Source: Rudaea sp. (GTDB taxonomy: Bacteria > Pseudomonadota > Gammaproteobacteria > Xanthomonadales > Rhodanobacteraceae). Taken from it: a DNA stretch of 64,000 nucleotides. The notes beneath the pieces were generated by a model. It saw only the letters and a program-made list of their open reading frames with translations, was not told where the DNA came from and made no database searches. The translations under genes were made by a program, and so were the position numbers. The stretch covers positions 19,741 to 83,740 of the forward strand of contig JANWJJ010000041.1 of the NCBI GenBank assembly GCA_025451955.1, read 5' to 3'. Positions 17,912 through 27,319 of the stretch are shown here, piece by piece; position 1 is the first letter of the stretch; the number at the start of each line of letters is the position of its first letter.

Positions 17912-18773
17912 CGAACAGCAACACGGCAATACCCAGCCCGATCAAGGCCGCCGCGCCGATCAGCCACCAGATATCGTTGCGATTGCGCTCGACGGCCGTC
18001 GCCACAGGCGATGCTCCGGCCGATTGCGGAATCGCGCGCATGGTCTGGGTGATGTTCGGCGAATCCTGTGCCGCCGCCGCAGCATTATCCGAGCGCGTAG
18101 GCAAACTGGGCGCCTCGAGCAGAAACCGGTTGCTGCCGAAGGCGATCTGATCGTCGGGAAACAGCACCGCATCGCGCACCGGCACGCCATTGACGCTGGC
18201 GCCGGTCGAAGATCCCAGATCACGCAGATAAATTGCGTCGCCAATGTTTTCTATCGCCGCGTGCCGCGGAGACATCGCGGCATCATCAAGGACCAGATCG
18301 CTCTCGCTACCACGCCCGATCACGAGACGACCACGCACCGGCACGATCTTGCCGAAGTAGCTTCCGGATACACCGCGCAACACCAGTTTCGGCGGCGCAA
18401 TATGGGCGCGCGCATCTCCGGTTTCCGCTGCAGGCGCGGGGCTGACCGGCATCGGTTTCGATGCAGGAATGTCGGTACGGACACTGTCGTCACGGTCGGG
18501 CCGGAGCACGAACTGGACCGTATCCAGACTGACCGTATCGCCGAGATGCAAAATTGCTTTCTCGCGCACCGGCCGGGCGTTGACGTGAGTGCTCGCCTGC
18601 GCGTCGCGTACGCTGAGCACATAACTGCGCTCGGTCACAGTGAGATTGACGTGATGCGCCGCGACGCCGGGACGGTCGAGCACGATCGTGTTGTCCGCAG
18701 CGGCGCCGATGGAAGTCTCGCCGGAGGCGATCAGGACGTCGTCGTTATCTTTGTTCGTGAAACAAAGGCGCAT
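17901..18773 (-). CDS. Tandem FHA-domain protein with C-terminal transmembrane anchor
   Basis: Two FHA-like modules (SIGAAADNTIVLDRPGVAAHHVNL; VIGRGSESDLVLDDAAMSPRHAAIE...LGSSTGASVNG) and terminal TM DIWWLIGAAALIGLGIAVLLFVRF. Confidence 0.88.
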   Translation of the reverse strand: MRLCFTNKDNDDVLIASGETSIGAAADNTIVLDRPGVAAHHVNLTVTERSYVLSVRDAQASTHVNARPVREKAILHLGDTVSLDTVQFVLRPDRDDSVRTDIPASKPMPVSPAPAAETGDARAHIAPPKLVLRGVSGSYFGKIVPVRGRLVIGRGSESDLVLDDAAMSPRHAAIENIGDAIYLRDLGSSTGASVNGVPVRDAVLFPDDQIAFGSNRFLLEAPSLPTRSDNAAAAAQDSPNITQTMRAIPQSAGASPVATAVERNRNDIWWLIGAAALIGLGIAVLLFVRF

Positions 18774-18844
18774 GGGAAATGCCGAACTTCGCGATCACCA
18801 GAATGTATCACAGCGACGCCGCGGCGCCGCGCCCGTAGCCGACT

Positions 18845-23908: not shown

Positions 23909-24625
23909 ATGAGCAAGCCGAAACTGAAATCCAAAACCGCACCGTCCAAACCGGCAAAGAAGCCTGCGGCGGCGGCAAAGCCGGCGAAACTCGCCAAATC
24001 GGCCAAGCCGGCCAAATTGGCAAAGCCGGCAAGCCCTGCGAAACCGGCAAAACTGGCCAAGTCGTCAAAGCCGGCAGCCTCTTCCAAACCGGCCACCAAC
24101 AAGACCATCATGGAATCGGCCCAGCACATCTGGCTGGCCGGTCTCGGCGCCTTCGCCAAGGCCCAAGAAGAAGGCGGCAAGCTGTTCGAGAACCTGATCA
24201 AGGAAGGTTCCAGTCTGGAACAAAAAACCCGCCATCTCGCCAGCGGCAAGGTCGGCGATGTGCGTGGCGCAGTCGAGAACAGCGTGAGCCAGGTGCGCGA
24301 ACGCACTCAGGAAACCTGGGATCGGCTCGAACAGGTTTTTGAAAACCGCGTATCGCGCGCGCTGACCAAGCTCGGCATTCCCGGACGCAAGGAACTCGAC
24401 GAACTGCTCGCGCGGGTCGATGAACTCAATCGCGACGTGCACAAACTCACCGGCAATACGCCCAAGAGCACCCTCAGCCGGGTGATGGGCAATACCGTGC
24501 GCCGCGCCCGCGACGACCTGAGCGATCTGGCTCGCGAACTCGAAGAAGCCCAATTGGCGGCGAAGAAATCGGTGACGCGCACGGTTGCCAAGGTCAAGAA
24601 GACAATCAAGTCCGCCGCGCGCTGA
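23909..24625 (+). CDS. Phasin family protein with Lys/Pro/Ala-rich N-terminal tail
   Basis: MSKPKLKSKTAPSKPAKKPAAAAKPAKLAKSAKPAKLAKPASPAKPAKL... followed by a phasin-like coiled region (HIWLAGLGAFAKAQEEGGKLFENLIKEG). Confidence 0.85.
   Translation: MSKPKLKSKTAPSKPAKKPAAAAKPAKLAKSAKPAKLAKPASPAKPAKLAKSSKPAASSKPATNKTIMESAQHIWLAGLGAFAKAQEEGGKLFENLIKEGSSLEQKTRHLASGKVGDVRGAVENSVSQVRERTQETWDRLEQVFENRVSRALTKLGIPGRKELDELLARVDELNRDVHKLTGNTPKSTLSRVMGNTVRRARDDLSDLARELEEAQLAAKKSVTRTVAKVKKTIKSAAR
23930..24100 (+). repeat. Imperfect tandem AKPAKL-coding repeats
   Basis: Recurrent (gcc/aaa/ccg/gcc/aaa)-type units encoding AKPAK(L/S). Confidence 0.8.
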
Positions 24626-24641
24626 GCGGACTGCGCTTAAC

Positions 24642-24706
24642 GCCCGCCAGCCGCCAACGAACGCCGAAGGATCCCTCCCCCCAAGGCTTCGGCTGGCGGG
24701 CTTTTC
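24642..24706 (+). terminator. Rho-independent-like terminator after the phasin gene
   Basis: cccgccagcc ... ggctggcggg followed by cttttcgttt. Confidence 0.7.
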
Positions 24707-24731
24707 GTTTGACTATCCGCTTCAATTACGC

Positions 24732-25305
24732 GTTAGGCTCTATGGCTAGGTTGTTTCTTTATCTACTTGTCTTTGGGCTATTAGCCGTCAACAGCAATGC
24801 TGCCGACGAAGCAACCAACTCTGAAGACGCCGCTGTCCTTTCAGTCATAGCTCAGTCCATGTGTGCGAGCCTTGCTTCGCGCGGGGAAACGCGATACTTG
24901 GTCCTTTCGGATGAATCGGAACAAATCAAAAGCGACGGGGGTAAGAAAAGCTTGGGGCGAGACGCCGTAGCGTCGCTTGTCAGCCGCAATTCTGCTCACT
25001 ATCCGCTACCAAAAATTACCCTCTGTCCGGGTATTAGGCTTTTCAAAGCCGAAGTTATCCGGTCGGCAGAGCAGAAATTTATAGAGAACGACGACTATAT
25101 TTCTGGCTTTCGGCAGGCATTCCCGGGGGCCTTTGGACCGACAGATATGAGCCTTCCTGGCTATACGGAGAATGCCACAAGAGCTTTGGTGGTTGTGTCG
25201 AACGCTGGCGGCAGCTTCTACTATGTGCTTTTCAAAAAGAATGGAAAGTGGCACATCGAGAAGACAGTTTTCCGGTCTATAGCCTAACTACTCGCTCAAG
25301 CGCCA
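24732..25305 (+). mobile_element. Solo integron-type gene cassette / cassette-array fragment
   Basis: GTTAGGC at 24732-24738 preceded by ccgcttcaattacgc; GCCTAAC at 25282-25288 containing the TAA stop of the ORF, followed by tactcgctcaagcg, as in an attC R''-L'' half-site; composition shift. Confidence 0.65.
24742..25287 (+). CDS. Secreted hypothetical protein carried by the cassette
   Basis: MARLFLYLLVFGLLAVNSNAADEA signal peptide; no recognised domain; AT-richer than surroundings. Confidence 0.75.
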   Translation: MARLFLYLLVFGLLAVNSNAADEATNSEDAAVLSVIAQSMCASLASRGETRYLVLSDESEQIKSDGGKKSLGRDAVASLVSRNSAHYPLPKITLCPGIRLFKAEVIRSAEQKFIENDDYISGFRQAFPGAFGPTDMSLPGYTENATRALVVVSNAGGSFYYVLFKKNGKWHIEKTVFRSIA

Positions 25306-25327
25306 CAACACGCAAGCGCATGCTGCG

Positions 25328-27319
25328 CTACCAGTGAATCCCGCGCATGACTGAAGCGAACGCCACCTGTTCGCTGGTCGGTTCCTTCTGGATTTCGCCC
25401 CTGCCCTTCATGCCTTTTGCTGCGGTGGAATCCGGGAACAGGCGGAACGCGGTGTTCATCAGGATTTCGTAGGCGCGCGGCGCGAGCGCATAAAAAATCT
25501 GCGCGAACGTGCCCATGCGCGTGGCCAGACGAACCGGGCGTTCGACGATGGCCTCGACGACAAAATCTGCCGCTTCTTCCGGTGTCCAGGTCGGCACCGA
25601 ATCGTACATCTTGGTCGGCGCGATCATCGGCGTTTTCACGAGCGGCATGTTGACCGTGGTGAAGTTGATGCCGTTGTCGGAAAACTCGGCTTGCGCGCAA
25701 CGCGAGAACGCATCCAGCGCCGCTTTCGATGCGACGTAGGCGGAAAACCGCGGCGCATTGGTCAACACGCCGATCGACGAGATATTGATGATGTGACCGC
25801 GATGGCGCTGCGCCATGCCCGGCAACAGGCCCATGATCAGGCGCAGCGAACCGAAATAGTTGAGCTGCATGGTGCGCTCGAAATCGTGGAAACGATCGTA
25901 GCTGGCCGCGATCGCGCGCCGGATCGAGCGCCCAGCATTGTTGATCAGGATATCAACGCCACCATGCTCGGCCAGCACTTTCTTGACCAGATCGTCGCAC
26001 ACCTTCAGGTCGGCCAGATCGGCGACGTAGGTGTGGCAAGTACCACCGGCATCGACAATCTGCTTGCGCGTCGCCGCCAGTTCGTCCTCGCCGCGTGCGC
26101 AGATCAGCACCTTGGCGCCGGCTGCAGCAACCTTTTCCGCCACCGCCTTGCCGATACCCGACGAACCGCCCGTAATCAGCACGGTGCGACCGCGCACCTT
26201 TCCTGCCAGCGAATGATCGACAAACAAATCCGGGTCAAGATGACGTTCCCAGTAATCCCACAATCGCCAGGCGTATTCAGGCAGATCCGGCACACGGATT
26301 TTCGTGCCCTTGAGCGCGCGCTCGGTTTCGCGGCAATCGAAACGGGTCGGATAATTGATCAGCTTGATCGCTTCAGCCGGAATGCCCAAATCGCGCAAAA
26401 GTACATTGGTAAACCTTTTCACCGGCGGCAATCCGGCCAGCGCCTGCTTGATCGCTGCCGGCACGAACCCGAACATGCGCGCATCCAGGCGCATGGTCAT
26501 TTCCGGCGCGTGACCGGCACGGGCGAAAAGGTTCAGCACCTCGCCGATGCGGCGCGGCGCGGGATCGGTGAGATGGAAGCAGCCGCCGTCGAGACCAGGT
26601 TTGTGCGCAATGTGATCCATCGCCGCGACGACGAAATCCACCGGCACCATATTCACCCGGCCGCCTTCCAGGCCGATGACCGGCATCCACGGCGGCAAGC
26701 TCTGGCGCAGTTTTTTCAGGGTGCGGAAAAAGTAATACGGCCCGTCGATCTTGTCGATTTCACCCGTGCGCGAATGCCCGATCACCACCGCCGGGCGATA
26801 GATGCGATACGGCCGCGCGTAGTCCTTGCGCACCAGCGCTTCGGCTTCGTGCTTGGTCTTGAAATAGGGGTGATCGAGATCTTCGGCTTCACCGAACATG
26901 TCCTCGCGAAACACGCCCGGATACAAACCGGCAACCGCAATCGAACTGGTGTGATGAAAACATCCTGCCTTGATCGCATCGGCCAGTTGCAAGGCATGTC
27001 GGGTGCCATCGACGTTCGCCGTTGCCTGACTCGTGGCGTCAGCCGCCAGGTTGTAGATCGCAGCCAGATGGAAAAAATGTTTGACCTTGCCGGCAAGCGC
27101 TTTGCGCTGCGCTGGGGTCAACCCGAGTTGCGGTTTCGCCAGATCGCCGGTTACCGCGATCAGACGCTTGCCGTCGGCACCAAAGTTGTCGCGCAGTTCG
27201 TCGAACTTTTTCTGCGAACCCTTGCGTACCAGACAGTACACGTCGCCCTTGCGCGCGAGCAAATGCGCCAGCAGGTGCCGGCCGATGAAGCCGGTCGCCC
27301 CGGTCACGAAGTACGTCAT
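25328..27319 (-). CDS. Two-domain SDR protein, probable fatty acyl-CoA reductase (extended SDR + classical SDR)
   Basis: MTYFVTGATGFIGRHLLAHLLARKGDVYCLVRKGS...; second domain GRTVLITGGSSGIGKAVAEK...SAYVASKAALDAFS. Confidence 0.8.
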   Translation of the reverse strand: MTYFVTGATGFIGRHLLAHLLARKGDVYCLVRKGSQKKFDELRDNFGADGKRLIAVTGDLAKPQLGLTPAQRKALAGKVKHFFHLAAIYNLAADATSQATANVDGTRHALQLADAIKAGCFHHTSSIAVAGLYPGVFREDMFGEAEDLDHPYFKTKHEAEALVRKDYARPYRIYRPAVVIGHSRTGEIDKIDGPYYFFRTLKKLRQSLPPWMPVIGLEGGRVNMVPVDFVVAAMDHIAHKPGLDGGCFHLTDPAPRRIGEVLNLFARAGHAPEMTMRLDARMFGFVPAAIKQALAGLPPVKRFTNVLLRDLGIPAEAIKLINYPTRFDCRETERALKGTKIRVPDLPEYAWRLWDYWERHLDPDLFVDHSLAGKVRGRTVLITGGSSGIGKAVAEKVAAAGAKVLICARGEDELAATRKQIVDAGGTCHTYVADLADLKVCDDLVKKVLAEHGGVDILINNAGRSIRRAIAASYDRFHDFERTMQLNYFGSLRLIMGLLPGMAQRHRGHIINISSIGVLTNAPRFSAYVASKAALDAFSRCAQAEFSDNGINFTTVNMPLVKTPMIAPTKMYDSVPTWTPEEAADFVVEAIVERPVRLATRMGTFAQIFYALAPRAYEILMNTAFRLFPDSTAAKGMKGRGEIQKEPTSEQVAFASVMRGIHW

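Follow-up and report, generated by a model that had tools for sequence, protein, structure and literature searches.

Clusters of attC sites, or single attC sites, without an integrase gene (intI) are described as CALIN or SALIN elements; for Xanthomonas, roughly half of the genomes are reported to have CALINs away from the integrase locus (PMC12444791), and elements with a single attC site are recognised (PMC9024848, PMC12690207). Cassette insertion outside integrons, at attG-type chromosomal sites, is established (Loot et al., 2024, as cited in PMC11023631 and PMC12901181), and truncated attC sites are known from class 1 integrons (PMC4670013; the Partridge types as summarised in PMC12901181), where the truncated attC of a fused cassette was reported to be no integrase substrate (PMC4670013). 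The loss of very stable attC hairpins through slippage or SbcCD is anticipated in a passage of PMC8946536.

The locus described here, found in a 64-kb stretch of DNA (the window), resembles each of these cases and differs from each. Like CALIN and SALIN elements, it is a cassette with genus-type attC sequence, without a nearby integrase, in a lineage that has integrons. Unlike them, it lacks even one recognisable full attC, both boundaries being stemless, and a structure-based attC finder would probably miss it (covariance model E of about 1). As in attG-inserted cassettes, the cassette lies outside an integron and starts after a G crossover, whereas its left boundary resembles a decayed attC and makes an array remnant at least as likely, in a comparison based on the citing papers. 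Its downstream attC is reduced to the R''-side part, as in class 1 truncated-attC or fused cassettes such as blaGES-1/aacA4 (PMC4670013); in contrast to these, the cassette stands alone in a chromosome, and a direct repeat of the genus attC marks the exact end of the remnant. Finally, it shares the loss of the attC hairpin with the general expectation voiced in that passage of PMC8946536, to which it adds natural sites with the expected product. We propose, with a probability of about 0.72, that window positions 24732-25302 are the remnant of a cassette or short array that was placed by a genus-type integrase and whose attC hairpin was lost later. Dispersed cassettes and truncated-attC cassettes are already known, and the locus is a well-documented new case; its collapse scar is the part of specialist interest.

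Table 1. Features of the cassette locus and its chromosomal neighbours (window coordinates).
Feature	Positions	Strand	Basis
Phasin gene, left chromosomal neighbour	23909..24625	+	Pfam PF05597 (8e-45); orthologues in 14 of 15 other genus genomes
Terminator hairpin of the phasin gene with its T-rich tail; conserved flanking chromosome	24643..24706	+	Alignment in relatives L109-L116
Left boundary GTTTGACTATCCGCTTCAATTACGCGTTAGGC, probable decayed stemless attC, upstream cassette lost	24707..24738	+	Stemless profile, control sites, covariance model
GTTAGGC (R' box) at the start of the cassette; crossover follows G 24732	24732..24738	+	Sequence
Cassette ORF, 181 aa, signal-like N-terminal segment, no known family	24742..25287	+	
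R'' box GCCTAAC over the stop codon, reverse complement of R'	25282..25288	+	Sequence
attC spacer and L'' (TACTCGCTCAAGCG), ending at the GCTCAAGCG repeat; without hairpin, L' or R'	25289..25302	+	R''-to-L'' identity with intact G011:C94:1909; top left half in window
Reductase 3' flank, conserved chromosome from the last base of the attC remnant or within a few bases	25303..25327	-	Identity to relatives
Fatty-acyl reductase / short-chain dehydrogenase gene, right chromosomal neighbour	25328..27319	-	Pfam PF07993 and PF00106; orthologues of 80-87% identity in 14 genomes of the genus

The cassette ORF lies between convergent phasin and fatty-acyl reductase genes (Table 1), and the positions that the first-pass annotation gave for GTTAGGC, GCCTAAC and the ORF agree with the sequence. 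The ATG follows three bases after GTTAGGC, as expected of a cassette, whose 5' end opens with (G)TTRRRY a short way ahead of the start codon, and the TAA stop (25285-25287) is contained in GCCTAAC. This RYYYAAC box, which closes the ORF, is directly followed by tactcgctcaagcg (25289-25302), a spacer and L'' of the genus type. The low GC content noted in the first pass is also evident, at 50.4% in the ORF (GC3 54%); both neighbours are higher, the phasin gene at 60.8% (73%) and the reductase gene at 60.5% (74%).

Integrons are common in the genus. Among 16 genomes, which include the source assembly (G000), 11 encode an integron integrase above the TIGR02249 curated cut-off, and the attC pattern RYYYAACTAYTCGNTCAAGYG was found with at most one mismatch in 11, its reversed control in none. 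Around these matches, 71 distinct putative attC sequences were collected, mostly of about 90 bases and of the form RYYYAAC-TATTCGCTCAAGCGGAC...GCCGCTTAGCTCAAGC-GTTRRRY. The source assembly (2.55 Mb) contains no integrase over the cut-off, in line with the remark in the first pass that none was in view; this absence counts against our reading, in an assembly that is only 81% complete. The genome does carry other attC sites, which the first-pass annotation had proposed to look for: an array on contig C39 (L090:316-3100) with three clear attCs, one stemless and one weak, a second array on C132 (L147:68-1463), both with no integrase in view, and a lone cassette on C87. Cassette genes of the C39 array include aspartyl-protease-like, LprI-like, CaMKII_AD-like and Polyketide_cyc2-type genes. 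The C87 cassette (L148:4243-4803, C87 about 18242-18802) starts with GTTAGGG, has a degenerate attC, and contains a HicB-like ORF (just below the Pfam cut-off) and possibly a broken HicA-like frame. It sits between a DUF2461 gene and a putative EpmA-like gene, and these two genes are directly adjacent, leaving a clean empty site, in G007, G008, G010, G011 and G013. Because of this empty site in five relatives, dispersed lone cassettes in the lineage are real.

On sequence grounds, the right boundary is attC-derived, because GCCTAACTACTCGCTCAAGCG (25282-25302) is identical to an intact attC of the same genus (G011:C94:1909) over the first 21 bases of that site and is the best attC left half in the 64 kb by a wide margin. 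With profiles built on the genus attCs it scores 21.3 bits, and the next scores are -0.4 on the same strand and 2.5 on the other. The bottom strand of the intact G011 attC folds with R and L paired at -20.4 kcal/mol (single-stranded DNA), unlike the right boundary, which yields no R/L pairing. The 3' end has no L', no R' (GTTRRRY) and no foldable bottom-strand hairpin, so the locus is filed as a cassette remnant and not as an intact cassette. GTGAATC at 25334 was considered as the R' of this site and rejected, as it lies within the reductase coding sequence. In a covariance model of intact attCs the right boundary reaches E 1.7 and the left boundary ranks second in the scan with E 0.83; values of about 1 at both ends count against our reading, and arise because neither boundary has a stem. 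The first-pass annotation would have taken a lack of attC-like folding at either boundary as evidence against a cassette. Such folding is indeed lacking, and comparison with intact attCs of the genus and with a collapsed attC in the same genome explains why.

How the hairpin may have been lost is suggested by the architecture of the genus sites. Among direct repeats shared by the two attC arms, GCTCAAGCG is the most frequent, and in 17 of the attCs analysed it is the longest; its copies flank the attC hairpin on both sides, and the right copy stops at the crossover G. A deletion between the two copies would leave RYYYAACTATTCGCTCAAGCG and, immediately behind it, either R' or the sequence that happened to lie there. 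At the right boundary, a single GCTCAAGCG copy joins the R'' side to the chromosome: the attC sequence stops at the last base of the repeat, at the crossover G, and conserved chromosomal sequence resumes immediately or a few bases later. A precedent is found in the same genome, where the stemless GCATAACTATTCGCTCAAGCGTTAGAC at C39:2558-2584 (L090) lies between two cassettes and, read as sequence, is an unambiguous collapsed attC and the clearest example of hairpin loss. We hypothesize that a genus-type integron integrase put a cassette or short array between the phasin and reductase genes by recombination at G^TTRRRY, and that the attC stem was subsequently deleted between its flanking GCTCAAGCG repeats, for example by replication slippage, which would leave the crossover G as the junction between R''-spacer-L'' and the chromosome. 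Since a cassette without a single-stranded hairpin should no longer be excised, the loss has probably locked this one in place.

The downstream attC had been described in the first pass as truncated; the damage is evident, and simple truncation gives way to a probable collapse between direct repeats. An ordinary deletion that removed the right half of the same attC, with an end point unrelated to the repeat, is unlikely in our view. The class 1 truncated attCs are a precedent for it, and several array-end sites of the genus lack their right half from other points (e.g., L093 9104 and L099 4390). Against it, the final base of GCTCAAGCG, the crossover G, is precisely where the attC stops and conserved chromosome takes over, an end point that a random truncation would reach only by coincidence; moreover, the same collapsed product is unambiguous at C39:2558.

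The left boundary is less well preserved. It is the best attC right half in the window (10.5; next 5.6), but as an ungapped right half it drops to 74th of 63,984 once the 7-base R box is left out of the score. When small insertions are allowed and it is scored as a collapsed attC (GTTTGACTATCCGCTTCAATTACGCGTTAGGC), it reaches 17.8, a value that in the window is exceeded only at the right boundary and is followed by 15.6 at the next site; none of 153 control GTTRRRY sites and 0.125% of random windows reach this stemless score. A point against this site is that its proposed R'' box shares bases that may be chromosomal. An alternative R'' of a full left attC, GCTTAAC at 24634, was ruled out, as it lies in the conserved phasin terminator region (to ~24711). 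The first-pass annotation had read the left boundary as an attC right half, of which the attC likeness stands; as an intact right half it has little in its favour beyond GTTAGGC, and a decayed, collapsed attC appears to fit better. We regard it, with moderate confidence, as probably the decayed, collapsed attC of a lost upstream cassette, and a second collapsed attC suggests an array remnant over the insertion of a single cassette. The latter would have a single cassette at a non-classical attG-type chromosomal site, with a left boundary of plain chromosome and a chance G before TTAGGC. Such a history is possible and somewhat doubtful: cassette insertion outside integrons is established, and the C87 cassette with its clean empty site is a case in the same genome, but the left boundary scores above all 153 control sites as a decayed stemless attC, and its 20 bases ahead of GTTAGGC, which align to no relative, occur in none of the relatives' empty sites.

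Comparison across the genus sets the cassette apart from its surroundings. None of the other 15 genomes of the genus has the ORF, and a sporadic presence of this kind is expected of an integron cassette. Phasin and reductase genes lie tail to tail without it in two relatives, G003 (gap ~155 bp) and G015 (gap ~515 bp), an adjacency that the first pass had proposed to look for, and the synteny expected of an ordinary chromosomal gene is not seen in these genomes. The gap (window 24626-25327) is variable, with a ~3-kb gene in several relatives and repeats in G015, and no base-exact empty site was found among the relatives, which counts against our reading. Conservation runs on the phasin side through the terminator to ~24711 and on the reductase side from the stop codon out to ~25303, where 12-15 of 25 bases are identical in G003, G008, G013 and G015; identity over the 25 bases beyond is at background. 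These observations bear on the most conservative explanation, an ordinary gene that happens to be flanked by GTTAGGC and GCCTAAC, which we consider very improbable. A 7-base inverted repeat is weak evidence by itself and the covariance model is not significant; opposed to chance are the 21-base identity to a genus attC, its first rank in the window, the lack of any reversed-control match in 16 genomes, and the absence of the ORF from every relative. The attC-type 3' end, the low GC content and this absence together support the stranded cassette or array fragment that the first-pass annotation had proposed.

The product of the cassette ORF is a 181-aa protein with a hydrophobic, signal-like segment at its N terminus, seen by inspection only; it is probably exported or secreted, and its sequence points no further than to an accessory protein outside the cytoplasm. 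No family was found above chance in Pfam, NCBIfam or PADLOC, no relatives in plasmids or viral contigs, and no close relatives among 85,462 genome species. Within 300 genomes of the order, the protein occurs in six, its own included; the other five belong to the same family and hold distant relatives. An AlphaFold2 model (pLDDT 84) has no match in the PDB at E <= 0.001. Its weak matches, which we do not count as evidence, are to NTF2/cystatin-like and phospholipid-binding proteins, and a small NTF2/cystatin-like domain is a weak guess. A search for a sigma-70-like promoter near the ORF found none.

Stabilisation of integron cassettes as chromosomal genes is usually inferred from absent integrases. 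Here, immobilisation of a cassette would have left a scar that is concrete and can be tested, and with it a sequence signature for further cassette-derived genes that structure-based attC searches would not report. We tentatively suggest, at a little under even odds, that attC hairpins are recurrently deleted in nature between the direct repeats of the site, and that mobile cassettes turn into permanent genes of the chromosome by this route. The scar would then be a short R''-TATTCGCTCAAGCG, sometimes with R', invisible to attC finders; as finders miss such scars, cassette-derived genes would be under-counted in these bacteria and the integron contribution to their chromosomes under-estimated. 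A literature search for domesticated attC sites with a lost stem-loop found none among the papers covered, which is weak evidence of absence.

Further candidate stemless sites occur in G003, G188 and G455. The search at two mismatches gave five matches compared with two in the reversed control, and because the control also matches at this level, only the cases with zero or one mismatch (G000 and G003) carry weight. The two-mismatch candidates L154 (G455) and L150 (G188), near position 1500, come from two other genera of the family. A separate peculiarity of attC ends was seen in G015, where the right end reads GCTTAGCTCAGCAACTGTCTTGGTG instead of CTCAAGCGTTRRRY at L030:14615 and L100:3974, the same replacement at two array ends.
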